This document shows positions 8,771 through 62,118 of a DNA stretch of 64,000 nt, piece by piece (position 1 is the stretch's first letter; each line of letters opens with the position of its first letter). Position numbers and translations under genes: made by a program. Under the pieces are notes generated by a model. The model made no database searches and was not told the origin of the DNA. It saw only the letters and a program-made list of their open reading frames with translations. This stretch comes from Herbinix sp. (GTDB taxonomy: Bacteria; Bacillota; Clostridia; Lachnospirales; Lachnospiraceae): positions 94,729 to 158,728 of the forward strand of contig JAQZBN010000003.1 of assembly GCA_029238935.1 (NCBI GenBank), in the 5' to 3' direction.

Positions 8771-8830
8771 TTATATAACAAGCTCGATGGTATCTTATTG
8801 TAATTATCTATTTCTCTATTCAAATATATC

Positions 8831-9632: not shown

Positions 9633-9633
9633 T

Positions 9634-12623: not shown

Positions 12624-13556
12624 TTATAAATGCGAAACAATCAGATTCATAGTTCCTTCTAATCGATAAGTACCATAACCGGAAGGAAGAATAAAATGAT
12701 CCCCCTTCTTGATTGAAATACCATCAATTTCTCCGGTACCATCGATTACGCTGACATTTAAAAACAACTGGTCTTGAATAAATTCCTGCTCCCCATGAAG
12801 GTCTATCTTCTTAACCGTGTAAAAGCCGCAGCGTATTAACTCTTGTACTTCACAATCCCCTGTTTTATCAAGTTTTCCACTTGCTAAAACATCGACATGA
12901 GGACATCCGATTACATCAATACTTTTTTCAATATGAAGTTCTCTTGGTTTACCATTATCCAATCTGTCATAATCATACAGACGATAGGTAACATCGCTGC
13001 TTTGCTGCGTCTCCAAGATTACTGTACCACCCTTGATTGCATGAACTGTTCCCGGTTCGATCTGAAAGAAATCACCCTTTTGAATGGGTCTTAATTTGAT
13101 TAAATCCGTCCAACGACGATCCCCAATCATTGCTTTTAATTCCTCTTTATCTTTTGCATTGTGTCCGATGACGATATTCCCGTCCTCCTCACAATCTAAG
13201 ATGTACCAGCATTCCGTCTTTCCAAGAGATCCGTTCTCATGTTCTTTCGCATACGCATCATCCGGATGCACTTGGATACTAAGATCATTCTTTGCATCGA
13301 TAATTTTAATTAATAGAGGGAACACTTCCCCTGGTGCATTTCCAAACAATTCTTTGTGGTTCTCCCAAAGATCGCTTAAATGTTTCCCTTCATAGGTACC
13401 ATTTTTAATCGTACAATCCCCATTTTTATGTGCACTGATGGCCCAACATTCTCCTGTATGATCGGATGGAATGGTATATCCAAAATCCGTTGCTAATTTA
13501 TTGCCACCCCATATCATTGACTTAAATACCGGTTCTAAAAATAATATTTCCTTCAT
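12624..13556 (-). CDS. manA: Mannose-6-phosphate isomerase, class I
   Basis: FLEPVFKSMIWGG, SIQVHPDDAYA, EPGTVHAI motifs. Confidence 0.93.
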   Translation of the reverse strand: MKEILFLEPVFKSMIWGGNKLATDFGYTIPSDHTGECWAISAHKNGDCTIKNGTYEGKHLSDLWENHKELFGNAPGEVFPLLIKIIDAKNDLSIQVHPDDAYAKEHENGSLGKTECWYILDCEEDGNIVIGHNAKDKEELKAMIGDRRWTDLIKLRPIQKGDFFQIEPGTVHAIKGGTVILETQQSSDVTYRLYDYDRLDNGKPRELHIEKSIDVIGCPHVDVLASGKLDKTGDCEVQELIRCGFYTVKKIDLHGEQEFIQDQLFLNVSVIDGTGEIDGISIKKGDHFILPSGYGTYRLEGTMNLIVSHL

Positions 13557-13635
13557 GGTTAACTCCTTTTTTTTAAAGTTATCGTTAACTTAATATGACT
13601 TTAATTAAGTTTATATTTTGCAAAGCTAAGTTCCA

Positions 13636-14643
13636 TTATCTGGTAGCCTTTGTTACGGAGGCTCCTTTTACTATTCTTACACTTACTACTTTTCTACCAA
13701 AATCTGCTTTTGGATGTTTCATCTTCTTGATGATTGAATTAACAGCCATCTCAGACATTGCATCAACATTAACCTCTACGGTTGTGATCGGAGGATTACT
13801 AAGCGCTGCATATACATAATTATCATAACCTACAACGGATACATCCTCCGGAACTTGATATCCTGCTTTCTTTAATTCAAGAATGAGATAATAGGCAATT
13901 TCGTCACAGTTGCAGACAAATGCAGTAGGCATATCCTTTGGAAGCTTAAGTTCACAGAATTTACCCTTTTCGTCTCGGTCACTAATAATCCAGTCTTCAT
14001 TTACCGCAATTTTATTTTGCAATAAAGCTTTATAATACCCGATATATCGGTCCATAATACTACGAGTTGCATCCCTATTTCCAACAAAACCAATTTTAGT
14101 ATGTCCTTCTGAGATAAGATAGTTTGTAATCTCAAAAGCTCCATAAAAGCTGTCACTTACAATGGAATCCACCGGAAAATGCTCGTCCGTAAAATCCAGG
14201 AAAACAAACGGAAACCCGGCTTGATCAATACGCTCGATAAAATCCCTATCCATTTGTCCCAGTATAATGATACCATCTACTTTATTATTCTGAAGAACCT
14301 GTGGTAATATTCCCCCCATTTCCATCTCTTCCGGTATTACCTCAAGGATTCCAAAATAATTCATTGTCATAAGATCCTTCATGAGCCTTTGGTATATCTT
14401 TGTATAGAATGCTCTGTCATGCATGAAACGATCCGCAACCAGAATTCCGATATTATAGTTCATACCTTCCTTCATACTTTTTGCAATAATATTATAACGG
14501 TATCCCATTTCTTCAGCCTTTTGCTTGATTGTATCTCGGACTGCTTCACTGACACCCTCTTTACCTGATAACGCTTTGGAAACCGTAACTGTACTGACTC
14601 CCAACTGCTCGGCAACGTCTTTCATTGTAATATTTTTGCCCAT
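13636..14643 (-). CDS. LacI-family transcriptional regulator
   Basis: TMKDVAEQLGVSTVTVSKALSGKEGVS HTH and periplasmic-binding-like domain. Confidence 0.95.
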   Translation of the reverse strand: MGKNITMKDVAEQLGVSTVTVSKALSGKEGVSEAVRDTIKQKAEEMGYRYNIIAKSMKEGMNYNIGILVADRFMHDRAFYTKIYQRLMKDLMTMNYFGILEVIPEEMEMGGILPQVLQNNKVDGIIILGQMDRDFIERIDQAGFPFVFLDFTDEHFPVDSIVSDSFYGAFEITNYLISEGHTKIGFVGNRDATRSIMDRYIGYYKALLQNKIAVNEDWIISDRDEKGKFCELKLPKDMPTAFVCNCDEIAYYLILELKKAGYQVPEDVSVVGYDNYVYAALSNPPITTVEVNVDAMSEMAVNSIIKKMKHPKADFGRKVVSVRIVKGASVTKATR

Positions 14644-14826
14644 CTGATCACCCTTCCTAATTTGATCATAACCCTATTAACTTATTAATTAATTTGCTTA
14701 ATTATAACAAATTATTACTTAATTACAATGTTAATTATGCAATAATCTTAGTATTTTATGATATATAAATTCATGGCATCCCTGATCATGAATACTTGGA
14801 TGCAGGATATATAAATGAAGCAAAAA

Positions 14827-45880: not shown

Positions 45881-45948
45881 AAAGGTGTCAGGCACCCTTA
45901 AGAAATTCTTACATTTGTAAGAATTTTGTAAGGGTGCCTGACACCTTT
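45881..45948. repeat. 68-bp palindromic repeat, copy 1
   Basis: aaaggtgtcaggcaccctta-ag-aaattcttac-attt-gtaagaattt-tg-taagggtgcctgacaccttt. Confidence 0.97.
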
Positions 45949-46064: not shown

Positions 46065-46598
46065 ATGAGTCTAGATATGAATAAAGTAGGTGAACAAATC
46101 GCCTTATTAAGGAAAATCAAAGGATTAACTCAAGCAGAACTAGCTGATCGAGTAGGAATTTCGTTTCAAGCGGTATCTAAGTGGGAAAGAGGGGAAACCT
46201 TACCTGATGTATCAACACTTGTTATATTGGCTGAAGTATTTGAAACATCAATTGACTTTATCTTAAATGGAGGGACGAAGATAGCAAAATTCAAAGGTAG
46301 AAAAAAAGTATCCGATATCAAAAAAGGGATCGACTGTCTCATAGAAATGGGAAACTTACTTGGACAAGAAAATCTACTGTATCGAAGTGCAATTGCTGGT
46401 ATTGATAGTGGGATGAACATGGATATAGAAACATATCTAAGTGATTCTAAAACAAAGGAGGCAGTTCTGGCAGAAGCAATTGTGCAATGTATTCTATCAA
46501 ATTATTATGTTGACATTACAGATATACGTAAAAATTTCAGTTCCGAGCATTTTGCCGATATCGTATGTGATTATGCAAGCAAGAATGGTATTCAATAA
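46065..46598 (+). CDS. XRE-family HTH regulator
   Basis: VGEQIALLRKIKGLTQAELADRVGISFQAVSKWERGETLPDVSTLVILAEVF. Confidence 0.94.
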   Translation: MSLDMNKVGEQIALLRKIKGLTQAELADRVGISFQAVSKWERGETLPDVSTLVILAEVFETSIDFILNGGTKIAKFKGRKKVSDIKKGIDCLIEMGNLLGQENLLYRSAIAGIDSGMNMDIETYLSDSKTKEAVLAEAIVQCILSNYYVDITDIRKNFSSEHFADIVCDYASKNGIQ

Positions 46599-46600
46599 AT

Positions 46601-46667
46601 AAAGGTGTCAGGCACCCTTAAGAAATTCTTACATTTGTAAGAATTTTGTAAGGGTGCCTGACACCTT
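46601..46667. repeat. 67-bp palindromic repeat, copy 2, starting 3 nt after the xre stop codon
   Basis: Identical to copy 1 over 67 nt (last base of copy 1 differs). Confidence 0.97.
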
Positions 46668-46838: not shown

Positions 46839-49304
46839 TTATCGTTCTTTATTTCTTCCAAATAACCCTTTTTTCTCTTCCGATGCCTTACCGATCTTCT
46901 CGCTTTCTTTTATATCATGCTGATCCGAATCCATTTTCCCGGATTTCTCAACGCTTTTGATATCCTTCTTATTGAAAGTGTTGTTGTTCTTAGGATTACC
47001 CTTGTTCTCTTTCTGATTGCTAATTTCTATGGAAGCAGCCTTTCGGAAAATATCCTCTCTGTCGTCCTCTTCCTCCGCATAACTTAGTAAATTACATTCA
47101 TAGAGCATCTGATAGACTAATTGCTTATTCTCTTCGCCCTTTAATAGCAGGGATTTCCTCTGCATACCATGCTTTAGATACAACCGTATCATCAGCCTTA
47201 AGGTTTCCTTGATTTGAGCCTGCTCTTCCTTATGTATGATCGGTACTCCGTTCCATAACTTTGCTATTCCTGTAATTCCTTCTTTTTTTCCTATGACCTC
47301 AATAATATCATCCTTATTGGGATAAGCCGGAAATGCGATGAGGAAGAATAATCGGTAATCATCATAATTTGTGAGGGAATGCAGGTATTCGATCAGAAGC
47401 TCATTTAATTCCACCGGATATTGCCGTAAGACACTTACGACTTCACTAATGGGTCGATCCAATAGGAACTTAATTTGATACGGAAGTGCAAAATTGTGAA
47501 GCACATTCTTATATTTATTATGAAGCAGCTCTTTCCACAGAATGGATGCATTCATCGAACCAGCTTTTTTAAGTTGTTCGACCATTGCAAAATCCCAGGA
47601 TCTTAAGATATTTTTATCTATTTCATTCAGCTGATAGATATCCGGAATACGATCGACTGCTTTCATTACCAATCTGATTGCCATTGCCTCATATTCTATA
47701 AGAGCATCGTGTTCCTTCCCAAAATCACTGGTCTGATTATAAAATGCATAGACATCGGAATAATTGATCAAATCCTGCTGCAGCATTAGTTTTGTAAAGA
47801 TCTGCTCAAGTACCTCAATATATCGGGAACTTTTTACCAATATGGGATATTTTTGATACAAGCTGTTCGCATCCGTATAAATCTTTGTAATTTTCTCCAT
47901 TTGCGAAAGGGTATTAACCTTTTCCCATTTAATGAGTTCTTCCTCGATGATGGTAACGGCAATTAGTTGATATTCCTTTATTTTATAGATGGTATCATAA
48001 AGAGAAAACTTTAATTCTTCGCCCAGTTCATATTCTAGGATCAGGTGATAAAGGCTATCCTTTTTTTGTTTCATCTCCGTCAGCATCGCATTACAGAGAA
48101 GCTTTATGATATCCTCTCTCTTTACTATTACATATTGGAACAAACAGTCTAGCACCTTCAACTGTACTTTTGTAATTTCGGTTATTGTTGAACTATAAAT
48201 TGTTACAAAAAGATTGATATCCTCTGTAATTTTTTGTTTTAGGAGGTTCGGCGTACCAAAGAGCTGTTCAAAGATAAAAGTGATCCGTTCAATATCAAAT
48301 TTGATTATTTTATTTTCTTTGATGGAGAACATCGTGTAAAATTCATAAACTGCTGTTATGATCTCAGGTGAAGTGATCTCATTATAATTCACTGTTGCAA
48401 TGAGATTTTCTAATAATTTTATTAAGAAACCATTATTATCTCCAGATGCCATTGTGTTATATAACACCTGAAGAAGATTTCTAGTATACGAATTCAGTTC
48501 CATGATCAGATTTTTCTGATATTTTCCATCAATCAGATAATTCTTCTTCCCGATTTCTTCATATTTCATTGTATTTGAATTATCTCTTGCTATAAATACC
48601 AGATTTATCCCTGCCGGAATTGGATTGGATAAGGCTTCATGAAAGGTTCCGGTATAGGTAAGGAAGCCAAAGCGACTTACTAAGATCGGAGGTAATATCT
48701 TCATCACTCTTTGAATAAATTCTTTCGCATAGAAAGTCATCTCTTGTGTATTTTCGGGAAGTGTGATATATACCCTGCAATTCATTTGAAAACAGGAATG
48801 CAGGAGGGCATAAATCAACGCATGAACATCTACCTGGGTAAGCTCCAGTTTTTGTAGAATAGATCGAAAATCTTTATGATCCTCCTCCGATCTGACTAAC
48901 CCGGGCTTTTCTAAAATTACACCATTTTGATACTCCTCCACATTGCTGTAGAACTTCTCAATCTCAAAGATTTTACTAGGTTTTGCAATAAGTGCTTGAT
49001 AATCATCTCCATCAAACAGGTATTTATGAACAAAACTGGTACCACGATAACCACTGGCCTGACTTGTAGCTGCTGGTACAAAGGTAGTTTTACCGACGAT
49101 CCCCATTAGTTTATTCTGAATTACCGTACTATAAAAATAAAAGCATTCGGGCAAAACCTCCAGATTCATATCACTCAGCAGTTTATAGGAATTTAAGCGT
49201 TCTCCTAAAATTGTCTTATCCGCAGTACTTAAATTCAGCTCCTTTATTTCCCCAAGCTGACCGTATCCATTCTGTGATCTTCCATAAAAATATTGATAAA
49301 TCAT
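46839..49304 (-). CDS. GAP1-like (GTPase-associated protein 1) large protein
   Basis: N-term IYQYFYGRSQNGYGQLGEIKELNL...TSFVHKYLF resembles GAP1-N domains; immediately downstream of the zinc-ribbon GTPase; long helical middle; charged tail. Confidence 0.6.
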   Translation of the reverse strand: MIYQYFYGRSQNGYGQLGEIKELNLSTADKTILGERLNSYKLLSDMNLEVLPECFYFYSTVIQNKLMGIVGKTTFVPAATSQASGYRGTSFVHKYLFDGDDYQALIAKPSKIFEIEKFYSNVEEYQNGVILEKPGLVRSEEDHKDFRSILQKLELTQVDVHALIYALLHSCFQMNCRVYITLPENTQEMTFYAKEFIQRVMKILPPILVSRFGFLTYTGTFHEALSNPIPAGINLVFIARDNSNTMKYEEIGKKNYLIDGKYQKNLIMELNSYTRNLLQVLYNTMASGDNNGFLIKLLENLIATVNYNEITSPEIITAVYEFYTMFSIKENKIIKFDIERITFIFEQLFGTPNLLKQKITEDINLFVTIYSSTITEITKVQLKVLDCLFQYVIVKREDIIKLLCNAMLTEMKQKKDSLYHLILEYELGEELKFSLYDTIYKIKEYQLIAVTIIEEELIKWEKVNTLSQMEKITKIYTDANSLYQKYPILVKSSRYIEVLEQIFTKLMLQQDLINYSDVYAFYNQTSDFGKEHDALIEYEAMAIRLVMKAVDRIPDIYQLNEIDKNILRSWDFAMVEQLKKAGSMNASILWKELLHNKYKNVLHNFALPYQIKFLLDRPISEVVSVLRQYPVELNELLIEYLHSLTNYDDYRLFFLIAFPAYPNKDDIIEVIGKKEGITGIAKLWNGVPIIHKEEQAQIKETLRLMIRLYLKHGMQRKSLLLKGEENKQLVYQMLYECNLLSYAEEEDDREDIFRKAASIEISNQKENKGNPKNNNTFNKKDIKSVEKSGKMDSDQHDIKESEKIGKASEEKKGLFGRNKER

Positions 49305-49330
49305 ACCGGTCCCTCCACCTTAAGGCTATT

Positions 49331-50824
49331 CTACTTTATGAATCTTTTGAACAAGGATGGAAGTGCATTCTTGCGGCTGATCAGCTTTCTCTGCTGTTCC
49401 AACCGATGATATAAGGATTCCTTTGTTTCATTAGCATAATAAAAGGCTGAAATCTCATGCTCTTGACCCTTTGAGTCCTGGAATTTATGAGCAATACGGC
49501 ATGGAATAATGTTATTTTCCATCATAAGCCAGTAAAAAGGTTCTGTTACACGGTAAGGTTTTATGGCTCCGTTAATTCCAATAAATTTCTCCATACTGTC
49601 TACCCCAATCCGTTCTATGAGACTTGGATTTTTGCCAAGGGAGGAGCAGAGAAAGAAATTGGAGGTTCGAAATAATCTTCGATGATTACAGAGCTCCTCT
49701 TCACCGATCTCTTTTAAGAAATGTTGTACTGTATGATCTACTTGATCGATTTCATCCATATCCAAATAACCTGGATGAAGATCCCTTTGGTCAATATTAA
49801 GTGTACTAACCTTTGAATCTTCAGTAAAATAATCCAAATCCCGAAGGATATCCCCCTTGGTTATTACCAGAGCAGTTGGAATTTTCGTCTGCTCCTCAAA
49901 GGTATTGGCGATTAAATACCGATTGATTGCAGTAATAACTTCCAGTTGGTAACGGTTGGCAATCCTCATCCCATCTTCTGTATTGAACTTAATCGCACTA
50001 AATCTAGTGGGATCAATTAGGAATAATAAACCTGAGGATGCTTTGATATGGTATCCATTCCGTTCCATGGTATCTGCACTTCTGCAATCCTCACCTGCGA
50101 TATCACAGAAAATCACAATACAGCTTTTGGGATCTTTTGAATCCGCTGTCTCATAAGTATACTGAAAAGGCATTGGTGGAAGCTTTTGTCTTAAATTAGC
50201 ATCCAAGACTTTCTTCTCATGAATTAATTTATCAATATTGCCAAAACACAATTCTTTCTCCTGCTCAGTTCCCATAAACTGAATGGTTCCTTTAAACATA
50301 TCCTTCTTTAACATTTCCTGCAGAACTGTTAAATAGATCGTCTTACCAACATTGGTATCACCGATCACTGAGATCAAGAACATATCATATTTTCCTGCAC
50401 CGTCAATAATCGGATTATGGCAATGGGGACAGAGCCGCTTCGTAAGTTTTTGCCCTTTATACGTAACCTCTGTAACATATCCGTATTTGGCCATAGCCAG
50501 TTCATCAAAATAAAGCTCCGGTGATTGATAATCCACAGTGATGGCTGGCAATAGGAAGGCTTCGTCCCTTGCATCGGATTCATTCATGTTTAGATAATCA
50601 ATATAATAACGATACAGTTTCTCATCCTGTTCTTTTCCTTGATTGTAATCCTTTGTCTTTGGTTTGTTCTTTCCTTGTGTCGGTATCCCCATCCCGGGTA
50701 GTTCCGTGTTTTCTTTTTTCTCTGTTTCCACATTGTCTTCCACCAAGCGAACCAACCGAAAATCCACATGGTTTGGTTGAAACCTTTTACAGCAATATGG
50801 ACATATGATTTCTTTCCCCATCAT
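49331..50824 (-). CDS. Zinc-ribbon TRAFAC-type GTPase (DO-GTPase2-like)
   Basis: CPYC...CPHC Zn ribbon; P-loop GDTNVGKT; G3 DIAGED; G4-like TKGD. Confidence 0.75.
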   Translation of the reverse strand: MMGKEIICPYCCKRFQPNHVDFRLVRLVEDNVETEKKENTELPGMGIPTQGKNKPKTKDYNQGKEQDEKLYRYYIDYLNMNESDARDEAFLLPAITVDYQSPELYFDELAMAKYGYVTEVTYKGQKLTKRLCPHCHNPIIDGAGKYDMFLISVIGDTNVGKTIYLTVLQEMLKKDMFKGTIQFMGTEQEKELCFGNIDKLIHEKKVLDANLRQKLPPMPFQYTYETADSKDPKSCIVIFCDIAGEDCRSADTMERNGYHIKASSGLLFLIDPTRFSAIKFNTEDGMRIANRYQLEVITAINRYLIANTFEEQTKIPTALVITKGDILRDLDYFTEDSKVSTLNIDQRDLHPGYLDMDEIDQVDHTVQHFLKEIGEEELCNHRRLFRTSNFFLCSSLGKNPSLIERIGVDSMEKFIGINGAIKPYRVTEPFYWLMMENNIIPCRIAHKFQDSKGQEHEISAFYYANETKESLYHRLEQQRKLISRKNALPSLFKRFIK

Positions 50825-50831
50825 CTCTCTC

Positions 50832-51455
50832 CTAACACCTAAAGAGTTCTATAAACTGTTTCTGATCCTCGGTAAGTAATAATTCAATTACATCATCTTT
50901 TCTGACAAAAAATTCATACTGTCCACTTTGAAATCTTTGAAGATCTATCCCATATCGTATTACCTTACCATCCTTACCGATGCTTTGATAATATAAAAAA
51001 GGCTGCTGTGTAATTTCCTGTAAGTTTAACAGTTGTAAAATGACCTTTTTGTATTTCCCAAAAGGAGACCTCTCATAACGCAGGGAATAGGATAACTTAA
51101 GCTTTCGAAGAAATTTGCCGGTTACATTTTCAACTTTCTGATCGACAAAGGTAATCTTGCCTCCTTTCTCTATATGAACCGGAAAAAGCTTAAATTGTCC
51201 TGAAAAACCGGTGATCTTTGTTCGATATTTTAAGTCAAAGGAATCCTCCATAATCGTCGGCTTCTTATATTCCAGAAGATGCTCCAGACTCTCATCCTCA
51301 TTAATCTCAAAGATTGCACATTTATTATAAAAGGTATTTTTCGGCCACTCCCAGGTGATGGTAACACTGTTTTCCCGGTCTACACACCCCCTGATCTGTG
51401 TGATATAATCTCGTTTATTTTCCGAATTAACAATGATAATATCCTCTTTCTCCAA
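50832..51455 (-). CDS. Small beta-rich protein of the GTPase locus, unknown family
   Basis: 8-bp gap to GTPase gene; predicted alternating beta strands (VTITWEWPKNTFYNKCAIFEI..., ITGFSGQFKLFPVHI). Confidence 0.6.
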   Translation of the reverse strand: MEKEDIIIVNSENKRDYITQIRGCVDRENSVTITWEWPKNTFYNKCAIFEINEDESLEHLLEYKKPTIMEDSFDLKYRTKITGFSGQFKLFPVHIEKGGKITFVDQKVENVTGKFLRKLKLSYSLRYERSPFGKYKKVILQLLNLQEITQQPFLYYQSIGKDGKVIRYGIDLQRFQSGQYEFFVRKDDVIELLLTEDQKQFIELFRC

Positions 51456-51467
51456 CTATGTAGCGCC

Positions 51468-53660
51468 TCACTTTCCTTTACTGCAAAGTTCTTCGTAGGC
51501 TGATTTCCATATCCCGTGGTAAACACCGATCTGTTCTTTTTCAAAACAACCGACCAGATAAATCATATCGATGCTGTTATAATTATGTTCGTAGAAGATA
51601 CTGATCTGATTTTTTCGATGATCTTGCTGCATCCGTTCCACCACATGATCAATAAAAGCATTGTTTTCATTGGCAAAGAAACAGATGTGTTTATTTAATT
51701 GAGAGCTTTGAACTACTTTCAAATAGAATTCCTGATTATCTAGGATGGTTCCATAAGCAAGGTTAAAGACATCGGATTGATCCTTTAGAATAAGAGAACC
51801 CTGACGAAAATCAAAGAGCCGTTTGACCATCTCTATGGTAAAATCCTCCTTAAAGCAGTCTTCCTCACAAAAATCCGCAGCATATTCTACGAGAAGCTGA
51901 TAAAAATAATTCACATCGATCCCATCCTCCGTGATCGCCTGGTTAATTCTTCTGTTTAACTCTTGAAACTTTACTTGATGCTTATTCCTTATCAAAGCAG
52001 AAAAAGTATAACTGTAATATTTCATCAAGTTTCCAACCCGAAGTGTTAACTCCTGATCCAGAGAAAGATTAATATTATCTTCCAACTCCTCCTGGGTATT
52101 TTGAATGAAGCAGAAGGATTTTTCGTATTTTTCCCGTATAAGCAAGGCTTCGGATAAGTATCCCTTAATGACCTGTAGTTTAAACTCTACACTGGCTTTC
52201 TTACAGAGCAGATTGATGTATTCTACCGCTAAGGAATAGAAGATAATCGGTTCTTTCGTTCCTTTCATTTTTTCTCTGATGTTCCTTGTAACTACGTCGT
52301 TGCCTAGCCACCGTTTCAAATCATTTTGAAATCCCAGGGTGATATCGGTATAATCCTTTACCATTTTATTTAGTTTGGCTAAGATTTTATTTTCATCCGA
52401 TAGCAGATGGTAGATCTCATAGATGGAGTGCCCCTGATCCCTACAGATGCCCTGAAGAACTTTTCTAAAATCGATTAGATTAGTTTCGAGCAGATCCTTT
52501 GCCTTAGCATCACATTTAAAATTGAGTTCATAAAAGATCTCCAGGTTAGTACCAAAGAGTTTTCCAAGTGCCTCTCGATTGGTCATCCCAACCAAATCCG
52601 ATGGTTTGATGTCATGATTCCGAATGATCGGATAAAAAAGATCGATCTCTTCTGACGATATTTCCCGAAAGCCTACCTTTTTACATAAGCTTTTTAGACT
52701 CTCCTCTGTGATAAATAGCTGTGAAAATATCTCATCGTCAACCGGTCGTATATTACCTTGCATTTCCTTTAATATCTGATGAAGTAGTACTAATTCAATC
52801 GAACGGTCTTGCTTTTCTAATTGCAGGTATCCCATGGAGAAGAAGGTCCTGTTATTTTCAATTGATTTAACATTCAATCGATCTTCCTGAAAAGAATTAC
52901 TCATATTGATTGCACTGATACCATCCTTCATGATAATCACATAGGCGATTGCCGACATAATCTTATCCATACAATTTTGATAGAGTACTCCCTGACTGTT
53001 CTTATTGGAGAGACAAAAGACATTATTAATGAGTTCCTGACTCATGGAAAGCTCCCCAAGCTCCTTTAGGGTTAAGTAAGAATAGGCATTCTTCTGTGTA
53101 TCGTACTGCTCCTTGATAAATTCATCCAGAATACAATAAACATCCAGATAGACATATTCAGGAAAATACTCCTCTAATTTATTTTTTAAAAGTTGGATTA
53201 AATTCTTTAGAACGGCTGCCATGGGATCTTCCGCTTTGATAATCAGATTAATGCGGATTCGTCCCGGTTCCTGATATTGATATTGAGCAACACAGTTATA
53301 GATTCGATTGATATAACGCTTCAGCTCACTCTGAACCATAGGGGAATTCTGAAATTTTTCTGCAAACATCTCCCTCTCTGTTACTCCGTATTTATTATCA
53401 TAAGCTACATCCATTATTTTAATAACCTGAAACCTATCGTCCTTATAATGTGAGGTCATCCCCTTACATAATAACTGGCAGAATTGAATCTTCTCAACCG
53501 TCCCGATATGTTTATCCAGCAAATTCATGAATACTCTGATATCTCCTGTAGAAAAGTCTCCTAAGAACAGATTCAGGATCGGTTTTTTTAACCGTACCTT
53601 CTCTATAGGATGAATGGTTTTCTTTTTTTGATCGGTCTGAATATAATCAATAATTCCCAT
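51468..53660 (-). CDS. Degenerate tubulin-like protein lacking the Gly-rich nucleotide loop
   Basis: By-eye alignment to the neighbouring tubulin-like protein: NAYSYLTLKELGELSMS / NGYAALKELDYLMNM and NNVFCLSNKNSQGVLYQN / FNICLFISSRDSDGTIYSD. Confidence 0.55.
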   Translation of the reverse strand: MGIIDYIQTDQKKKTIHPIEKVRLKKPILNLFLGDFSTGDIRVFMNLLDKHIGTVEKIQFCQLLCKGMTSHYKDDRFQVIKIMDVAYDNKYGVTEREMFAEKFQNSPMVQSELKRYINRIYNCVAQYQYQEPGRIRINLIIKAEDPMAAVLKNLIQLLKNKLEEYFPEYVYLDVYCILDEFIKEQYDTQKNAYSYLTLKELGELSMSQELINNVFCLSNKNSQGVLYQNCMDKIMSAIAYVIIMKDGISAINMSNSFQEDRLNVKSIENNRTFFSMGYLQLEKQDRSIELVLLHQILKEMQGNIRPVDDEIFSQLFITEESLKSLCKKVGFREISSEEIDLFYPIIRNHDIKPSDLVGMTNREALGKLFGTNLEIFYELNFKCDAKAKDLLETNLIDFRKVLQGICRDQGHSIYEIYHLLSDENKILAKLNKMVKDYTDITLGFQNDLKRWLGNDVVTRNIREKMKGTKEPIIFYSLAVEYINLLCKKASVEFKLQVIKGYLSEALLIREKYEKSFCFIQNTQEELEDNINLSLDQELTLRVGNLMKYYSYTFSALIRNKHQVKFQELNRRINQAITEDGIDVNYFYQLLVEYAADFCEEDCFKEDFTIEMVKRLFDFRQGSLILKDQSDVFNLAYGTILDNQEFYLKVVQSSQLNKHICFFANENNAFIDHVVERMQQDHRKNQISIFYEHNYNSIDMIYLVGCFEKEQIGVYHGIWKSAYEELCSKGK

Positions 53661-53750
53661 ACTGCTTTTCCTTTCTACAAGAAGATATCAAGTTATTTTT
53701 CATCTAAATTTTCTCTTATTCTCATAACGGTTGCTATTTAGCATAAAAAC

Positions 53751-56700
53751 TTAATATAAATTCCGAAATGTAAATAATTCATGTTTTGCTTCCTCTGTAA
53801 TCATTTGATAGAACTGAAGCTTTGCAATTCCCTGATCCTTAACTCCCAGGTAGTTTTCGTTCAACTCATTACGATTTTCCTGCATTCTGTCAGCGAATTG
53901 CTCCAGTGATTCAATTATCTTACTGCGTGTTTCTTCTGAAACACTATCCTTTTGCTTTAGAGCCCGCAGTATCATCTCATCCCGTATCTTCTCCTCCATA
54001 GTTAAAAAACCGTGGAAGGTATAAAATTCAATATACTGATCCTCAATCCCGTGGAATTGATATAAATTCTTCTCTGCCCCATCCTTTGCTATATATTTGC
54101 TGGAATTTTTAACAATGCAACCAGTGTAGATACAGCGGATAAATTGTCTAATGAGCAGTGTAATATTCTCATATTTCTTCAGCTTCTCGATCACGTTTAA
54201 GCATGCTTCATGATTCTTTACCATCTCGGCAATCCGTTCTCTTCCTCCGATCATCTTAATAAAGATGTTCTTTGCATACTCATCATTCGGTGTCACACCA
54301 TCCTCAAGAAAGACAATGTCATACAATTTAAAACTGCTCATCATTCTCTGACTTCCTGTAAGCTTCTCCCGAATAATATTTAAGCACTTTGTAACCTTAA
54401 CAGCATCGTTAAATTCACTGTCTAGGTCGATCTGCTGATCCTTTAATATTCCTTCCCAGCCTACCAAGTCACCGTATTTGCAGATAAAGGTTAGAATACC
54501 TGGGTCATAAACGATATAACCGTATTCTTTGGCTTTATCAAAAATAGTTTTATACTCAGCGTTTATTTTCGCTTCGCGTGGGTTTTTATGACCGGAAGTC
54601 CAAGTAGTTTCAAAGTTCGGGGACGGTAAGCTCTTCCAATTCTTATTCTTCTCATAAAGATGTATTCCATTGGTCATGATCGAAGCCTCATAGGCGTCTT
54701 CGCATTGATCCAGTTCAGCATACTCGTAGAGAGGAATTGCAATATCGAAATTCAGCATGAAGACCCGTTCTGAGATACCGCTCTTCTTCACCTGGGACTT
54801 TTTGCCTGACATATAGAGCATCGCTGCATTTAAAATCTGCGGAGCATTTTCCGGAATGGAAAGGACCGTATAACGAGGTGCAGAAATCGGCATTCCGCCC
54901 ATCTCCGGCTTCATCGGGAACATTACCTTCGCTTTCTTATTTAATTCTTGAAGGATCTCCCCATAGAAAGAAGATCTGCTCTTACCTTGATGCATTGCTA
55001 TAAACTCCATGTAATAATCCATACCCTTATCCAGGATATTCTTAAAGCTTTCCGATATGTATTCATTGATCGCATCGACCACATCGGCTCTGGTCTTACC
55101 GGTCCAAAGCTCCGGATTCTCAATCAGGTTCTGGTAGAATAGTCGAACCACTTTTGCGAAATCTATTCTCAAATAAGGATCGGTCTGCATCCTGCCCATA
55201 ATCTCGCTAATAAATTCCGGTGCACTAACAAGATACCAGGACAGAACCGTATTATTATCCGAATATTGTATTGAGGTAGCTGTATTGATTTTTCCATATT
55301 TCTGGAACAGCTTCTTTAAGGTCTCAAATAATTCCGCAATTGAGGAATAGATCTCATTATTGACCTCTAATACCAACTTATAGATTTTTGCATATGCTGC
55401 CGCCATACATTCCAATACATGGTTGGTGAGAATGGCATTGTAATATTTATCACAGGCCTTTGCATAATTTTCACGTACCTTCTTCTTATGCTCCAGCAGC
55501 CCTTTATTCATCAAATCACTTAATGCACTTTTCATCTCTGCTTCATAAGCATCCAGCTGGATGGAATCAAATCTTCTTCCCAGCAGTCTTAACCTGGTTC
55601 TCTCAAGATAGGAGCTGACACTATTACTACCTGCCGGATTGTATAATAAAAGCTGTGTAAATACAGGACCCTTATTAATATCTTTAAAATAGGTATTGAT
55701 GATATTATTCTTATCCTTTAATAAAACTTCAAAATCCTTTACTTTGGTTTCTACCATATTATTCAGTACTTCGATCTGCCTCTTTGTAACACCCTTATAT
55801 TCTGTCTCCAGAGCGGAAGAAGCCTGCCTGATCTTCTCAAAGGTATAAGATACAAAATCCGGCCTTGGAGGCATTGCTCTTCGAAATTCCCGTTCTACCG
55901 CGCCTTCGTCCAAGCCGAGATTCCTCACCATCTCTTCCACATCCCGCTCTGTAGGGTCACTATTGTATAACCGCTCCGCCTCTTCAAACATGATGTAAGT
56001 CATATAACTCATTAAGTCATCAATCGGCAAGAATGCGGTCGAAGCACCAACCACATTATAGATATAGTTCACCGGATGCTTTGCAGAACCTAGGGAATTT
56101 ACGAAAGTACTGCCATTGCTCATAATATTGGAGATAAAGGAGTTAATCGTAAATTTACCTCCGTTATCCGCTTCCTCAAAGGCTATAAAGTTAACTACAG
56201 TTTCAGCTGCGATGCTAAGAGCATATTCATAGGGAGAATCCGAATAAATCGTGCCGTCGCTATCCCTGGAGGAAATGAAAAGACAAATGTTAAACGGTCC
56301 TTCATTGGTTTTATTGACTTTAAAATTCGGCCCATAGCCCTGTTCAAAATAATCCTTGGACCGTTCCATGTTCATGAGATAATCCAATTCCTTCAGTGCT
56401 GCATACCCGTTTCTTTTAATGTTGGCGGCAATGACATCATTACCTATCCCCACATTAATTAAGGAGACATCCGGCAGGAATAAAAGACCGATATTTTCTA
56501 CATTTCTGGAGTACTCTTCTGCAACCTTTCGAATCATATATGGAATATCAATAAAGGTTCCACTGCCGGTTCCACCGCTGATACCTGCTAATATAAATAC
56601 GGAGATTGGCACATTAGCACCATACCCTCTGGTAACTCTGCTGATTTTCTTTCGGATAGCATCAATGATAATGTTGCTGTTTAAGAACAGCATTAACCGG

Positions 56701-57155
56701 CCTGCCTGACGAACACCTCTTGCTCCATGTATGATCGATGAGATTGGAAGATCCTCGCAGAGCCACTCATCCGCATCCTCCATTAAAAAGGTTTTTCTTG
56801 CTTTTAAAATCTTGGCAATATCCCTATTCTGAAATAAAAAGAATTCCTCTAATTCTTTATTTAACTTAATACCTTCATACTCTGCCTGCTCATTGGCATC
56901 ATCGGTATCAATGGCAAGGTACTCTACATTATCCGGCTTTTCCTTCCATTCTCCCGAAGGGCTTTTGCAATTAATTCTTGTGTTGATCATTTTCTTAGTA
57001 CGTATTAAGGCATCTACACCTGTACCACCAAGTCCTACGATCAAAATGGGTGCTTTAATCGTCTCTGCCTTCGTCACTACTGCTTTGAGCTTGCAATCTC
57101 TGTCAAAATCAAGCCTAGCTTCTAATTTATCTCTTACATCCTTGCTTAATCCCAT
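53751..57155 (-). CDS. Large tubulin-like (Tubulin_2-type) GTPase
   Basis: PILIVGLGGTGVDALIRTKK N-term loop; signature AGISGGTGSGTFIDIPYMIRKVA; 1134 aa. Confidence 0.85.
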   Translation of the reverse strand: MGLSKDVRDKLEARLDFDRDCKLKAVVTKAETIKAPILIVGLGGTGVDALIRTKKMINTRINCKSPSGEWKEKPDNVEYLAIDTDDANEQAEYEGIKLNKELEEFFLFQNRDIAKILKARKTFLMEDADEWLCEDLPISSIIHGARGVRQAGRLMLFLNSNIIIDAIRKKISRVTRGYGANVPISVFILAGISGGTGSGTFIDIPYMIRKVAEEYSRNVENIGLLFLPDVSLINVGIGNDVIAANIKRNGYAALKELDYLMNMERSKDYFEQGYGPNFKVNKTNEGPFNICLFISSRDSDGTIYSDSPYEYALSIAAETVVNFIAFEEADNGGKFTINSFISNIMSNGSTFVNSLGSAKHPVNYIYNVVGASTAFLPIDDLMSYMTYIMFEEAERLYNSDPTERDVEEMVRNLGLDEGAVEREFRRAMPPRPDFVSYTFEKIRQASSALETEYKGVTKRQIEVLNNMVETKVKDFEVLLKDKNNIINTYFKDINKGPVFTQLLLYNPAGSNSVSSYLERTRLRLLGRRFDSIQLDAYEAEMKSALSDLMNKGLLEHKKKVRENYAKACDKYYNAILTNHVLECMAAAYAKIYKLVLEVNNEIYSSIAELFETLKKLFQKYGKINTATSIQYSDNNTVLSWYLVSAPEFISEIMGRMQTDPYLRIDFAKVVRLFYQNLIENPELWTGKTRADVVDAINEYISESFKNILDKGMDYYMEFIAMHQGKSRSSFYGEILQELNKKAKVMFPMKPEMGGMPISAPRYTVLSIPENAPQILNAAMLYMSGKKSQVKKSGISERVFMLNFDIAIPLYEYAELDQCEDAYEASIMTNGIHLYEKNKNWKSLPSPNFETTWTSGHKNPREAKINAEYKTIFDKAKEYGYIVYDPGILTFICKYGDLVGWEGILKDQQIDLDSEFNDAVKVTKCLNIIREKLTGSQRMMSSFKLYDIVFLEDGVTPNDEYAKNIFIKMIGGRERIAEMVKNHEACLNVIEKLKKYENITLLIRQFIRCIYTGCIVKNSSKYIAKDGAEKNLYQFHGIEDQYIEFYTFHGFLTMEEKIRDEMILRALKQKDSVSEETRSKIIESLEQFADRMQENRNELNENYLGVKDQGIAKLQFYQMITEEAKHELFTFRNLY

Positions 57156-57179
57156 GACACACCCTCCAAACGTTTCCTA

Positions 57180-59264
57180 TTAATAATTCTGATATTCGTA
57201 TTCCAAGCGAACATGCACGCAATTCGCACCTTGATCATCCGTAAATTCTACATACTCCTTATCACCAATGGTGGCGTCTCTGCTTTCTGTATATCCATAT
57301 GATAAGCTCATTCTATACTTTGATTTATTCTCGATTCGGATACAAGGTCCATCCTGAAAGGACGGATAGATCGTAATATCCTTAATTTCCTTGGTATTAA
57401 GGTGAGAATCCCCAAGAATCTCACTTAACCGTAATCTTCCCTTACGAAATAATAACTCATACCGCTTTCGCTCTACTCTTTGGTCAGGTAAATCAATGGT
57501 ATAATAAAGCCTTCCTTCGAAGGGAAGCTTCATTGTTTTTATTCTCTTAAGAAGCATAATAAAACTTACAAGGACCAAGATTAAAAGTGTTATTCCTCCT
57601 ACGATCGGAAGAATGCTGGTGATAAGAACATCGGTCCAAACATCAAGCAAAATCTCACAGGTGCCACCCTTTCCATCCTGTACAAGAATTGTTAGTTTAC
57701 CAGAACCGTTGTTCTTTGGAGTAATCTGTAATATTCCATCCTTCATTACAACCTTCACAAGCTTATGATCGTATTCGGTGATTTGATAGGTTAACAAATC
57801 ACCATCCGGATCATTAGCATAACCAGAAAGTTCTACATTCTTAGATTTTCCAAAGATTACAAAACCTGTGAACTCTATTTTATCCAGATTCCCAGTGGTA
57901 AACTCTGGATTATGATTTTCTTTTACAGGCTCAGATTTTGGTACTTCCGGCACCGGTTCGGGAGCCTTTGTTGGAGTCAGTGTCGGTTGTGGTACAATCA
58001 TTTTAAATGCAACAGGTTCCGAAATTCGGTAGAAGCTTTCATTCTCTACTCTAAGTGTAGCAAAATATTCGCCTTCCTCCTCTATCTGAACATCGCCTTG
58101 AAACTCAGCTCCATTTATTCTTGCTGGAAATTCCTTACTGTTTCCATTTGAATCTTCTACGATAACGGTTGCCGTAAAGTTTTGATAGAACTCTTCCTCA
58201 GTTATGGGGGAACCCTCCACTTCCAGATGTCCCCTTATCGTAATGTCATCACCTGGTTTATATTCCATTTGTTCGATCGGGTCGATTACCAGTGATACAT
58301 CATAATTGAAAAGCAGATTGATCTGAACTTTACAGCCCTTTACTCCATTCAGCTCTAAAAACCAATTCCCTTGTCTGGGGCTTTTTATCTTTAATAACGA
58401 ATAATTTTTTGATTTAGCTAAAATAACCTTGTCATTGTCAATGGTTTCGATATTCCCTTCCGGATTCGTAAGCTCAATATCCTCCAATAACTCAGTGGAA
58501 AGCATGATGACATTGGCTTCCAGAATACTTTCATTGGGAATTTTAATGGGAATTGTGGTTTTATTGGTTCCGGTAAGTTCCACCGTACCAAGATCGTGGA
58601 TTTTAGAATTAATAAAATCAGCAAAGATTTCATTAAAGATATTTGGTAAGTTCACCGCACTGTCCACGATATAAGAATTCGCTCCTGTTTTTTCTGCCAT
58701 TTTACTAATTAGATCCTTGTCTACACTTTGGTCGGCATTGAGTCCGATCGTATAGATGGGATATTGACCGGTGGCAGCATTTACAACTTCCCATACTTCT
58801 GCTTCTGACTGCTCCTGTGTCCTTTGCAGGGTCTTCTTATCAAAGTCAATTCGTCCATCGGTGAAGAGGAGCATCATGCTATTTTCTTTCAACTGATCCA
58901 ATAAGAGGTTTCCTTCTGTCATGGCAAGTCCAATATCGGTATCATCGCTGTAGGTCAGCCCTTCAATGGCTTGTTTGATTTTTTCTTTATCTTGTGATTC
59001 TTTGATGGATGTAAGTGGAATCGATAAGGTAATCTTATCACTAAATCCAATCACTCCTACCCTGGATTCATTACTCTCCATCATATCAATAAAAAGCTTT
59101 GCTGCTTCTATGGCAACTCTGTTTGTATCAGATTCCTTCATGGATCCGCTGGTGTCAATCACAAGGACTACATCCATTCCTGATTTATCATGATCCGCAG
59201 ATGCGGTTGCTGCCATTATAAATAGTATAGCAATTCCGAGGATTGCTAAAATACGCAGCTTCAT
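57180..59264 (-). CDS. Secreted, membrane-anchored vWA protein with Ig/cadherin-like domain and cytoplasmic tail
   Basis: Signal peptide; MIDAS VVLVIDTSGSMKESD, LLFTDGRID; TM ILPIVGGITLLILVLVSFIMLL; about 120-aa tail. Confidence 0.9.
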   Translation of the reverse strand: MKLRILAILGIAILFIMAATASADHDKSGMDVVLVIDTSGSMKESDTNRVAIEAAKLFIDMMESNESRVGVIGFSDKITLSIPLTSIKESQDKEKIKQAIEGLTYSDDTDIGLAMTEGNLLLDQLKENSMMLLFTDGRIDFDKKTLQRTQEQSEAEVWEVVNAATGQYPIYTIGLNADQSVDKDLISKMAEKTGANSYIVDSAVNLPNIFNEIFADFINSKIHDLGTVELTGTNKTTIPIKIPNESILEANVIMLSTELLEDIELTNPEGNIETIDNDKVILAKSKNYSLLKIKSPRQGNWFLELNGVKGCKVQINLLFNYDVSLVIDPIEQMEYKPGDDITIRGHLEVEGSPITEEEFYQNFTATVIVEDSNGNSKEFPARINGAEFQGDVQIEEEGEYFATLRVENESFYRISEPVAFKMIVPQPTLTPTKAPEPVPEVPKSEPVKENHNPEFTTGNLDKIEFTGFVIFGKSKNVELSGYANDPDGDLLTYQITEYDHKLVKVVMKDGILQITPKNNGSGKLTILVQDGKGGTCEILLDVWTDVLITSILPIVGGITLLILVLVSFIMLLKRIKTMKLPFEGRLYYTIDLPDQRVERKRYELLFRKGRLRLSEILGDSHLNTKEIKDITIYPSFQDGPCIRIENKSKYRMSLSYGYTESRDATIGDKEYVEFTDDQGANCVHVRLEYEYQNY

Positions 59265-59281
59265 AGTTTCTCCCCCTCCCC

Positions 59282-60973
59282 TTACTCATAGATTGCTATC
59301 TCACTTAAGGTAGTATCGTTGTACATGGAACCTCGGTAAATGGATAAAATCTCAAGTCGCAGGAAGTTTGTTTGAACCGGTTGACTTAATGTAATTTCAA
59401 TTCCTGTCGGTGCATAGACATCTTCCAGTGTAATCTCCTCTTCGAACCCATTTGACAAGCGCAGCCTTACACTTTTAACTCGATTATAATTGTTGTAGCT
59501 TTCATAGCTGTTTGCATTACCATTGATAATTCTAATTCTGGAAATCGTCGCTTCCTCAAATATCATAGTGATTTTTTCCCCGATTCCATCATCGGATTTC
59601 CCTTCCTGCCAATATGTCTTGCAGTTATTATCATACAGAGAATTAGCTCCATGGGTTGCACCATCCTTCTGATCAAACTGAGATGTTGCTTCTCCCTGTG
59701 TGATGGTTACTTCAGCAGGATCCAGATATGTTAAAGCAGTTACATCTAGATATCCGGTCTGATGATCCTCTGTCTTAAACCTACGCCAAACTTTCCCCTC
59801 CAGCAATTCTTCTTCTCCTACAGCCTTCACTACGGTACCATTCATAAGCCGATCGACCATAGTCGCATTCACTGCAGGTTCCTGACGAAGTACTGCAAGA
59901 GTCTCTACGACCAGATATTTTTCTGGAGTAATACCGAAGAGCTTCCCTGCCTTCGCTAGGACCTTTTGATCATAGGTGTTAAATTCATTCAGCTTTAATC
60001 GAAATTTTTCTGAGGTAAGTCCTATCAAAAATACAGTCACCAATACCATTATAAAAATACTGAATTTACCTATGCTTTGCTCTTTGATGCGAGTTTTCTT
60101 CTGCCGATTTACATCTTTGATAAGATATTGTGCTAGAGTGATAAGGTAAAATCGGTGTTTTAAGTTCGATTGCAGCTCGTTTCCTTCTTTCACGCTTTGC
60201 ATATGTAATAACATTTGACTCTGCTTTTCCAGATCATTTTTCGTTATCATAAGCTCGTCATGAGCTTTGATTAGCTGCCTATATTGACGGGTTATTTTAT
60301 TCGCTTTTACCGCTTGATAGGCTTCACGGATTGCTTTTATGAAGAAGAATAGCAGGAAGAAAAATATCATACTAAGTAAAACGAATGTTCCGGTGGTCTC
60401 TTGTTGAATATGATAATATCGTTTGATGTGTTCCTTTCCGATATTTAAAAAGAATAGACTGATCGTAATAAGAACCAGTAAAATACCGGCAAAAACCATA
60501 TTGGGCTTTTTCTTTTTCTTCTGAAGGAAACCATGTTTTTCCTCTAACCCATGAGCTGTTGCCTCCACTATAACCCGAAAATCCTCAATCATTTTTAATG
60601 CTTCCGCTTTATCTTGGCTGTGATCTGCGGATGGTATGGGTAATCCCTGTTCCTTCAAAAATTTTATAGGAACCGGAATTCCGTAATTATTATTAACGAA
60701 GAAGTATTCCGGGTGGTGTGTAATGATTTGTCTTAAATTAACTGCACTTATTCCATTCAGTGAGGTCAGGGGATTATTGGACAGCATCTGGTAAAATTTT
60801 AGGTAGTATTGCTTGAGATTTTCGATATCTTCATTGTTTTCTACTTTTGCTCTGCTTAGTTTGCTCTTTAGTTCTCTTGCTTCTTGTGTAAGAAACTCAT
60901 ACTGATCCAGATTTTTCTGCAGCCAGATACAATTGGTACTTTTGACTCCATTTTTCAACATGTCTGCATCCAC
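59282..60973 (-). CDS. Membrane protein with SH3-like and discoidin/NADase-type glycan-binding-like C-terminus
   Basis: Two-three TMs; LAVLRQEPAVNATMVDRLMNGTVVKAV (SH3-like); HGANSLYDNNCKTYWQEGKSDDGIGEKITMIFEEATISRIRIINGNANS. Confidence 0.72.
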   Translation of the reverse strand: MDADMLKNGVKSTNCIWLQKNLDQYEFLTQEARELKSKLSRAKVENNEDIENLKQYYLKFYQMLSNNPLTSLNGISAVNLRQIITHHPEYFFVNNNYGIPVPIKFLKEQGLPIPSADHSQDKAEALKMIEDFRVIVEATAHGLEEKHGFLQKKKKKPNMVFAGILLVLITISLFFLNIGKEHIKRYYHIQQETTGTFVLLSMIFFFLLFFFIKAIREAYQAVKANKITRQYRQLIKAHDELMITKNDLEKQSQMLLHMQSVKEGNELQSNLKHRFYLITLAQYLIKDVNRQKKTRIKEQSIGKFSIFIMVLVTVFLIGLTSEKFRLKLNEFNTYDQKVLAKAGKLFGITPEKYLVVETLAVLRQEPAVNATMVDRLMNGTVVKAVGEEELLEGKVWRRFKTEDHQTGYLDVTALTYLDPAEVTITQGEATSQFDQKDGATHGANSLYDNNCKTYWQEGKSDDGIGEKITMIFEEATISRIRIINGNANSYESYNNYNRVKSVRLRLSNGFEEEITLEDVYAPTGIEITLSQPVQTNFLRLEILSIYRGSMYNDTTLSEIAIYE

Positions 60974-61059: not shown

Positions 61060-61395
61060 GAATAATTGGTTTTATGGTTCTTTGGTTTATGGTTCTTTGG
61101 TATATGGTTCTTATATTTTTGGTCTTTCGCTTTTGGTTATTTCGTTTTTGGTACTTTGGTCTCTGGTGCTTTGGCTTCTGGTTCTTTCGTTTCTGATTCT
61201 TTGGTTTTTGGTTCTTTCGTTTATGATTTTTTGTTTCTGATTTTTTCGTTTATGATTCTTTGGTTTATGATTCTTTAGTTTATGATTCTTTGTTTATGAT
61301 TCTTTGTTTATGATTTCTTTAGTCTATGATTTCTTTAGTCTATGATTTCTTTAGTCTATGATTTCTTTAGTCTATGATTCTATGATTTCTGGGTT
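61060..61395. repeat. T/G-rich minisatellite with four perfect 16-bp units (61312-61375) and degenerate flanking units
   Basis: gatttctttagtctat x4; upstream degenerate tggttctttggttta-type units. Confidence 0.92.
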
Positions 61396-61530
61396 TTGAG
61401 ATATGCATTTTTGTTTATGATCCTTCGGTGTTATGTAGTTTATGCTTTATTTAGTTTAGTTTTTGATTTTTGTTTTCCATCTTTCGATTTAATAGAATGG
61501 TCTAATCAACTACTGTTTATCTAGAGTGAT

Positions 61531-62118
61531 TTATTTATTTGCAATGATAGGAGTAATAATGATGCTACCAGCAGCAACGTCAGTTGTTTGCTTAATAATA
61601 TCTTCAATCTCTGCAACTTTTTCAGCTGTAAGATCATCTTCACGGATTACTACATCGGCACCACCATCATCGAGTCGTACAATGACTTCTTCATACCCTT
61701 TTGCTACCAATTGATCCTCTGCAGCCGTTTCCTTCTCAATAATTCCATTTAACTCTGCCAGAAGTGATTCTGTTTCTGTTCTTTGCTCCTCTGAGATGTT
61801 CTCACTATTCAAGATTCCCTCCAAGGCCGACTTATTACTTTCCCTTACTTGCTCTCGGTCCATTTTTGCCCCTTCAAAATAATCTACTTTCGAAGTTGCA
61901 TTCTCTTTCACACCATCCAGTTCGCCTATGGATGCTACTTCCACTGGTACAACATCCTGTGAGTCATCTCCCTTTACTGATTGATCCGTCTTATCTTTGT
62001 CCAGAAAATCAAAATGAAATAACTCTCTGTCTGTTAACACAACATATTCAACCGCTACAATAACCAAAGCAATGAGCAAGAAGATCAATACACTTTTATA
62101 TTTTTTGATTTGTTTCAT
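61531..62118 (-). CDS. SpoIIIAH-like protein
   Basis: TM N-term; YFEGAKMDREQVRESNKSALEGILNSENISEEQRTETESLLAELNGIIEKETAAEDQLVAKGYEEVIVRLDDGGADVVI...TDVAAGSIIITPI. Confidence 0.88.
   Translation of the reverse strand: MKQIKKYKSVLIFLLIALVIVAVEYVVLTDRELFHFDFLDKDKTDQSVKGDDSQDVVPVEVASIGELDGVKENATSKVDYFEGAKMDREQVRESNKSALEGILNSENISEEQRTETESLLAELNGIIEKETAAEDQLVAKGYEEVIVRLDDGGADVVIREDDLTAEKVAEIEDIIKQTTDVAAGSIIITPIIANK

Follow-up and report, generated by a model that had tools for sequence, protein, structure and literature searches.

A divergent tubulin, GTPase, and GAP1 operon from a Herbinix sp. as a candidate envelope-sensing and membrane-remodelling machine

Introduction

For predicted bacterial systems that join tubulin-like proteins to a GTPase, namely, the FtsZl1 and GAP1-N2/DO-GTPase systems, two competing readings have long been on offer: membrane remodelling and immunity. 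A 64,000-nucleotide stretch of a Herbinix sp. genome (Lachnospiraceae; contig JAQZBN010000003.1, positions 94,729 to 158,728; hereafter the window, from whose first nucleotide coordinates are counted) contains seven adjacent minus-strand genes of this kind. Which system do they form, and which of the two readings do they favor? Judged from sequence, the locus almost certainly belongs to the GAP1-N2/DO-GTPase tubulin (FtsZl1) system, as a divergent variant from Lachnospirales. The novel part is the variant itself: it has no multi-transmembrane (multi-TM) vWA gene and, in the window and two relatives, it encodes a GAP1 without membrane anchor along with a separate membrane protein of the discoidin type.

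Results

Gene content of the locus

Seven open reading frames (ORFs) span positions 46839 to 60973 and would be transcribed in the following order:

59282..60973, minus strand: DISC, a membrane protein of 563 amino acids (aa) with a GTG start (PF25302, 3e-27; NF047619, 1.4e-33)
57180..59264, minus strand: VWA, a 694-aa transmembrane receptor-like protein (PF00092, 2.9e-17; PF17963, 5.2e-06)
53751..57155, minus strand: TUBA, a 1134-aa Tubulin_2/FtsZl1 GTPase (PF13809, 5.7e-56)
51468..53660, minus strand: TUBB, a 730-aa protein with a predicted tubulin fold (AlphaFold2 predicted local distance difference test [pLDDT] 82.1, predicted template modelling score 0.74)
50832..51455, minus strand: BETA, a 207-aa soluble beta-rich protein with a TTG start (Bacilli-only profile, 5.9e-11)
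49331..50824, minus strand: GTP, a 497-aa DO-GTPase2 protein (PF19993, 1.2e-9; 38.7 bits, cut-off 27)
46839..49304, minus strand: GAP1, an 821-aa divergent GAP1-N2/M protein (PF20014, 14.4 bits, under the cut-off)

From DISC to GAP1, the genes are separated by 17, 24, 90, 12, 7, and 26 bp. All seven starts are preceded by purine-rich sequence resembling a ribosome-binding site. An earlier note, made from the letters of the sequence, had described seven consecutive minus-strand genes with short gaps, and this was borne out (gaps of 7 to 90 bp). The identities it proposed (GTPase, tubulin, vWA, SH3/discoidin, and GAP1-like) are well supported, with DO-GTPase2, Tubulin_2, and VWA all above their Pfam cut-offs.

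Relationship to the system of Bacilli

A single TUBA sequence confirmed no relative in a search of the contigs, and an alignment-based profile was needed. When such a profile was run over GTDB contigs, 514 TUBA relatives were confirmed, of which the best 80 loci were used. These came mostly from Paenibacillus, together with Brevibacillus, some Bacillaceae, metagenome-assembled genomes (MAGs) of Defluviitaleaceae, a Lachnospiraceae MAG (L102), and a rumen Bacillota MAG (L112). The usual order in Bacilli was VWA, TUBA, TUBB, a multi-TM vWA protein (~430 aa), BETA, GTP, and GAP1. Among the loci L113 to L181 with sufficient flank (n = 65), TUBB, VWA, and GAP1 stood beside the tubulin in 65/65 and the GTPase in 59/65; some of the GTPase misses are loci in which a long ORF on the other strand was retained instead of the GTPase. 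The genes are thus co-conserved in order, not scattered.

For a held-out test, profiles were built from Bacilli proteins only and run against the ORFs of the window. Each found a single strong match, in GAP1 (4.1e-13), GTP (1.2e-48), BETA (5.9e-11), TUBB (1.9e-30), and TUBA (1.5e-163). At the level of sequence, these matches establish the five proteins as orthologous to, and collinear with, those of the Bacilli system, and the seven genes thus make up a diverged, collinear version of that system, with one gene lost and another gained.

In a maximum-likelihood tree of TUBA (42 rows), the window grouped with L102 (support 96/92), and these two grouped with L098, L112, and the Defluviitaleaceae-type loci (100/100). 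The inner order of this clade is uncertain because several branches are long. The multi-TM vWA gene was not seen beside the operon in any member of the clade. In L098 and L112, the order was TUBA, an extra ORF, TUBB, BETA, GTP, GAP1, DISC, and VWA. A loss of GAP1 from the Defluviitaleaceae-type loci was considered and rejected, with GAP1 found unlinked elsewhere in 4/4 f5 genomes tested; this supports a functional tie between GAP1 and the operon even where the genes are not linked.

Reduced loci were also observed in Lachnospirales-type genomes (L091, L093, L094, and L096; L084 to L087, L089, and L092), with either TUBA plus a short TUBB (~380 to 430 aa) or TUBA alone. In the two such genomes tested (G514 and G542), GAP1 was present elsewhere. 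In the Bacilli loci L113 to L181, two companion proteins were encoded on the opposite strand upstream of VWA: a ~313-aa zinc-ribbon protein with two TM segments (66 loci) and a ~597-aa protein with one (39 loci). The members scanned had no Pfam match over the cut-off.

An intact and a degenerate tubulin

TUBA scored 190.7 bits against Tubulin_2 (cut-off 27) and carries a long C-terminal extension. Its nucleotide loops are intact, with T1 as GLGGTG at residues 41 to 46 and T4 as GGTGSG at 194 to 199, and both motifs are widely retained in the family (T1 in 106/113 and T4 in 111/113).

TUBB presents the opposite picture, with T1/T4 motifs in 0/93 family members. Its AlphaFold2 model matched TubZ (4ei8, E = 3.3e-4, probability 1.00) in a Foldseek search, and many tubulins, CetZ, and FtsZ were also matched (probability ~1.0); the C-terminal part contains a long helix (residues 470 to 535). 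A Tubulin_2 match was obtained for 9/30 family members and not for the window's TUBB itself. On the basis of the model, the relatives' matches, and the missing motifs, TUBB combines a predicted tubulin fold with the loss of both nucleotide loops, which agrees with the degenerate tubulin named in the earlier note. TUBA and TUBB merged in iterated profiles, which was treated as possible drift; non-iterated profiles largely separate the two. The assignment of TUBB therefore rests on its fold and on the Pfam matches of its relatives. From their adjacency, TUBB may pair with TUBA.

Two irregularities were observed among the tubulin genes. Locus L077 contains two TUBA paralogues (7930-10490 and 11287-14789), both of which break into two overlapping frames at an identical point, TATTTCTTTTGCCGGACG, just before a conserved PDV motif; this may be an old frameshift shared via duplication or programmed frameshifting. 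In six related Paenibacillaceae-type genomes (G1166, G1194, G1196, G1197, G1158, and G1182), the TUBB match contains one in-frame TAG, which may be a nonsense change in common, readthrough, or a split gene.

The switch proteins and BETA

The P-loop GTPase motifs of GTP are complete as read from its translation: a split zinc ribbon (C8xxC11 and C132xxC135), the P-loop GDTNVGKT at residue 155, the Walker B motif DIAGE at 241, and TKGD at 322. Its C-terminal end, KLISRKNALPSLFKRFIK, is the top-scoring basic amphipathic 18-mer of the protein (discriminant 2.45). Comparable C-terminal ends occur in the GTPases of L102, L104, L110, and L111; in many GTPases of Bacilli, such a segment stands at the N-terminus instead (MGIFDFFKKKP type).

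The identity of GAP1 rests on its relatives, because the window's own protein falls under the Pfam cut-off (GAP1-M, 14.4 bits; cut-off 24). Among the aligned relatives, GAP1-N2 was found in 28/30 (best 1.3e-48) and GAP1-M in 29/30. A profile made from Bacilli GAP1 alone also found the window's protein (4.1e-13). The C-terminal half is helical, residues 742 to 821 are polar with pLDDT <50, and the tail ends in a short basic peptide. In the GAP1 proteins of Bacilli and f2 that were checked, one hydrophobic segment each was present at ~735 to 785. In the three loci with DISC (window, L098, and L112), GAP1 has no such segment and ends in the basic peptides GLFGRNKER, FSVFGKFKR, and FFDMFGKIKR, respectively. 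In a coarse scan, GAP1 of L115 (Bacilli) and of L083 likewise had no hydrophobic segment. DISC may therefore replace the membrane anchor of GAP1, to judge by these sequences. In a Foldseek search, the AlphaFold model of GAP1 (pLDDT 63.7) weakly matched TagF (9t0n, E = 0.014) and DENND10 (8p0v, E = 0.042), a possible hint, to be taken as a lead only, that the N-terminal half is longin/DENN-like; a profile of residues 1 to 335 found neither TagF nor DENND10 in the PDB.

BETA had no Pfam match, and no member of its family matched FNIII. By its position, BETA may correspond to the FNIII component of GAP1-N2 systems.

The membrane-side proteins

VWA (63.9 bits against Pfam, cut-off 23.8) begins with a hydrophobic, signal-like segment, followed by the vWA domain with its metal ion-dependent adhesion site (MIDAS) motif DTSGS at residue 37, immunoglobulin/cadherin-like beta domains, a hydrophobic segment at ~536 to 573, and a short beta-rich cytoplasmic tail. 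DISC consists of an N-terminal region of ~150 aa, hydrophobic segments at ~155 to 173, 191 to 209, and 298 to 316, an SH3-like region (SH3_3, 20.2 bits, under the cut-off of 27), and, at the C-terminus, a discoidin domain of the NADase type (96 bits, cut-off 27). The discoidin domain is of the glycan-binding type (NF047619), and residues 441 to 560 match PDB entry 7ji1 by sequence (1.9e-8). No NADase catalytic domain was detected in DISC. Relatives of DISC were found only in L098 and L112; they resemble it most clearly in their N-terminal part and topology, and Pfam found no discoidin domain in either. A partial upstream ORF in L102 has a hydrophobic pattern resembling DISC, with no detectable homology. 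In general, these features support well, at the sequence level, the earlier note's envelope-spanning complex, in which sensors on the outside are coupled both to a tubulin-like GTPase and to a switch of the P-loop GTPase type.

Distribution across genomes, phages, and plasmids

A Paenibacillus TUBB was used as the query for a survey of one family, called Paenibacillaceae-type here because its genome G1061 carries a TUBB 100% identical to the query. TUBB was found in 97/201 genomes and 10/19 genera of this family. In two of the genera, it occurred in 92/100 and 18/19 species, mostly as a single copy, and the module is near-core there. In the window's genus, a full-length Tubulin_2 gene was present in 1/34 genomes, that of the window itself, and in the window's family a Tubulin_2 match was found in 21/348 genomes (19 over the cut-off). 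No TUBA match was obtained among 50,697 phage records. On plasmids, no TUBA match was full-length; three Thermus/Meiothermus-type records matched distantly, in the N-terminal part alone. Two distant TUBA matches were found in IMG/VR. This distribution fits better with a stable physiological role in Paenibacillaceae, patchy elsewhere, than with purely accessory immunity.

Surroundings of the operon

A SpoIIIAH-like gene (61531-62118) lies upstream of DISC on the same strand. The 557 bp between them contain a tandem array (61066-61425) in which a 15-bp unit, AAAGAATCATAAACx (minus strand), is repeated ~22 times, possibly a variable-number repeat in the operon leader. The source genome has two SpoIIIAH-family genes, and the one in the window is the weaker match (126.7 bits versus 167.4 bits for G000:C39:57593-58420). 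Downstream of the operon is a divergent helix-turn-helix (HTH) gene (46065-46598), around which the palindrome AAGGGTGCCTGACACCTTT or a near-copy occurs three times (45881-45899, 45930-45948, and 46600-46620); it may be a small dispersed repeat or terminator-like. Farther away, a minus-strand block (17672-40107) encodes polysaccharide-synthesis enzymes (glycosyltransferases, FemAB-like, and Polysacc_synt_2), and a dynamin-family protein is encoded at 824-2629. A scan for sigma-70 promoters was uninformative (59 observed versus 58.7 expected).

PADLOC gave no match under an E value of 0.05 for any of the seven operon proteins, none of which is a database-recognised defence protein, and no recognised defence gene was found among the window proteins scanned around the operon. 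Nor were nuclease, TIR, SLATT, or protease effectors detected in the operon by the Pfam and PADLOC scans.

Discussion

A proposed envelope-sensing machine

We propose that the seven proteins form a membrane-anchored machine for envelope sensing and membrane remodelling, a reading to which we give an even chance. VWA and DISC would monitor the condition of the wall or membrane, and GAP1 and the DO-GTPase would receive the signal on the inner side. The DO-GTPase could act as a switch of the MinD/Ras kind, held at the membrane by its amphipathic end, and would govern how TUBA assembles there; TUBB, free of nucleotide, would serve as a structural partner or as a cap. The resulting structure might then reinforce, bend, or seal the membrane or recruit more factors. 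In most Bacilli relatives, GAP1 has a transmembrane segment of its own; in the variant, DISC would supply both the anchor and an outside domain.

Several lines of evidence support this envelope reading: collinear co-conservation; the held-out profile matches; the unlinked GAP1 in f5; near-core presence in two genera; absence from the phage records, from plasmids in full-length form, and from PADLOC-recognised systems; the basic amphipathic end of the GTPase, C-terminal in the window's clade and N-terminal in many Bacilli; the missing GAP1 anchor in the loci with DISC; and the neighbouring polysaccharide-synthesis genes. In addition, a DO-GTPase-Psp association has been published (PMC11237479), as has a proposal of membrane remodelling (PMC2875224).

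The main competitor is a regulated immune (conflict) system as conceived by Kaur et al. 2020, in which VWA, BETA, or the discoidin protein would sense an invader and trip the DO-GTPase and GAP1, with the tubulin assembly and membrane proteins as a lethal or growth-arresting effector. The component set does match the published predicted conflict systems, the module is sporadic in the window's genus and family, and its flanking genes vary among Paenibacillus lineages. However, near-universal presence in whole genera is unlike a typical accessory defence system, and the phage and plasmid surveys and the lack of detected effectors, PADLOC matches, and recognised defence genes nearby also count against it. 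We therefore regard immunity as an unlikely explanation, if still a serious one, and as a sole role it is weakened. Sporulation, also among the roles the earlier note had entertained together with envelope stress, fares worse. A developmental machine for sporulation or multicellular growth, remodelling membranes in engulfment or spore assembly, would suit the SpoIIIAH-like gene directly upstream on the same strand, which could be co-expressed with the operon, and the Bacilli carriers belong to genera known as spore formers. Yet this gene is a second copy, set apart across the repeat array; SpoIIIAH occurs in 16/21 tubulin-bearing genomes of the family (one weakly) versus 240/348 overall, which is no association; and no sporulation neighbour is conserved in the clustered relatives. 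We consider this explanation very improbable.

A surface transport, adhesion, or secretion apparatus is a third candidate. Here, the exported vWA and discoidin proteins would do the work and the tubulin/GTPase pair would power or position them, for example, for the polysaccharide of the neighbouring operon. The synthesis genes at ~17 to 40 kb of the window and the glycan-binding type of the discoidin domain are consistent with this, and a reviewer of the FtsZl1 paper (PMC2875224) favored transport or signalling. The polysaccharide block does not recur beside the module in the clustered relatives, though, and the operon has no transporter or secretion ATPase. We consider this apparatus quite improbable. 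The envelope-sensing machine is in turn burdened by several points. The evidence from the amphipathic GTPase end as a membrane contact is suggestive only, because shuffle p-values for single segments are modest (~0.02 to 0.2, some higher). Filament formation is uncertain because FtsZl1 proteins have no recognisable T6-H7 elements (PMC2875224). DISC proteins were found in just three loci, and among these a significant discoidin match was obtained for that of the window alone. The 1/34 occurrence in the window's genus is the patchiness expected of an accessory system, the source genome carries an estimated 8% contamination, and a literature search, with subscription papers and preprints mostly outside its coverage, found no experimental paper on a GAP1-N2/FtsZl1-type system.

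Within the envelope reading, a more specific and clearly more doubtful idea is that an active and a nucleotide-dead tubulin form an obligate membrane pair under a GAP1-regulated GTPase, near-core and non-immune in Paenibacillaceae and sporadically acquired elsewhere with the membrane sensor swapped (GAP1 anchor lost, discoidin gained). The strict loop loss in TUBB and the exchange of the GAP1 anchor for a discoidin protein are concrete, testable claims about which parts cooperate. Furthermore, the near-core Paenibacillaceae-type distribution offers cultured hosts in which one deletion could separate remodelling from immunity.

Comparison with known systems

The earlier note knew of no experimental function for the arrangement. 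Its observation was confirmed and its interpretation partly supported, and the arrangement turned out to match two published accounts. Kaur et al. 2020 (eLife 9:e52696, PMC7159879) described GAP1-N2 systems, for which they proposed a role in biological conflict; in the tubulin theme that these systems show in Firmicutes, there are two genes each for tubulin and vWA proteins, and the tail of GAP1 is polar. Makarova and Koonin 2010 (PMC2875224) described FtsZl1 with a vWA protein and a diverged GTPase and proposed membrane remodelling, with GTP-dependent filament formation as a prediction.

Several features of the window agree with the tubulin theme. The DO-GTPase has the zinc ribbon and the Walker B glutamate (PF19993, 38.7 bits; DIAGE at 241; CxxC at 8 and 132), and the gene downstream of it encodes a GAP1 whose C-terminal extension is polar. 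There are also two tubulin genes, as in the Firmicutes version with its C-terminal coiled coils, and both products (TUBA recognised by Pfam, TUBB through its fold and its relatives) have a helical extension at the C-terminus. The vWA protein is extracellular, and the small, beta-rich BETA sits where the theme has its FNIII component. In contrast to the theme, where one vWA protein is multi-TM and one carries YtkA, the window has a single vWA protein and the multi-TM one is missing; no YtkA domain was detected in the window's VWA or in three Bacilli vWA proteins. The window also adds the discoidin/SH3 protein with three TM segments, and its GAP1 has no TM segment and is itself under the Pfam cut-off.

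Similarly, the window resembles the FtsZl1 system in its FtsZ-like N-terminal domain with glycine-rich loop (GGTGSG at 194) and long C-terminal region, in the vWA protein with MIDAS DTSGS, and in the GTPase TKGD, one residue off the TxKD consensus (PMC2875224). Unlike that system, it has no OmpA protein and no kinase, and neither GAP1 nor the second tubulin is identified in the parts of the paper that were read. No AAA+ protein occurs among the seven, so the MoxR partner of the MoxR-vWA ternary system is missing. With the TubZ/CetZ/FtsZ/tubulin superfamily, the window shares the nucleotide-loop motifs of TUBA and the predicted fold of part of TUBB, whereas TUBB has no T1/T4 loops and both proteins carry long C-terminal extensions.

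A 2024 paper on phage shock proteins, an envelope-stress system, placed a DO-GTPase in PspFABC operons of Gammaproteobacteria and cited predicted membrane-related stress roles (PMC11237479). The GTPase family is the same, but the window's operon has no Psp gene and no tubulin is mentioned there. Since the core GTPase-GAP1-tubulin features are shared, the second vWA gene is missing, and YtkA was not detected, the locus is best filed as a variant of the tubulin theme.

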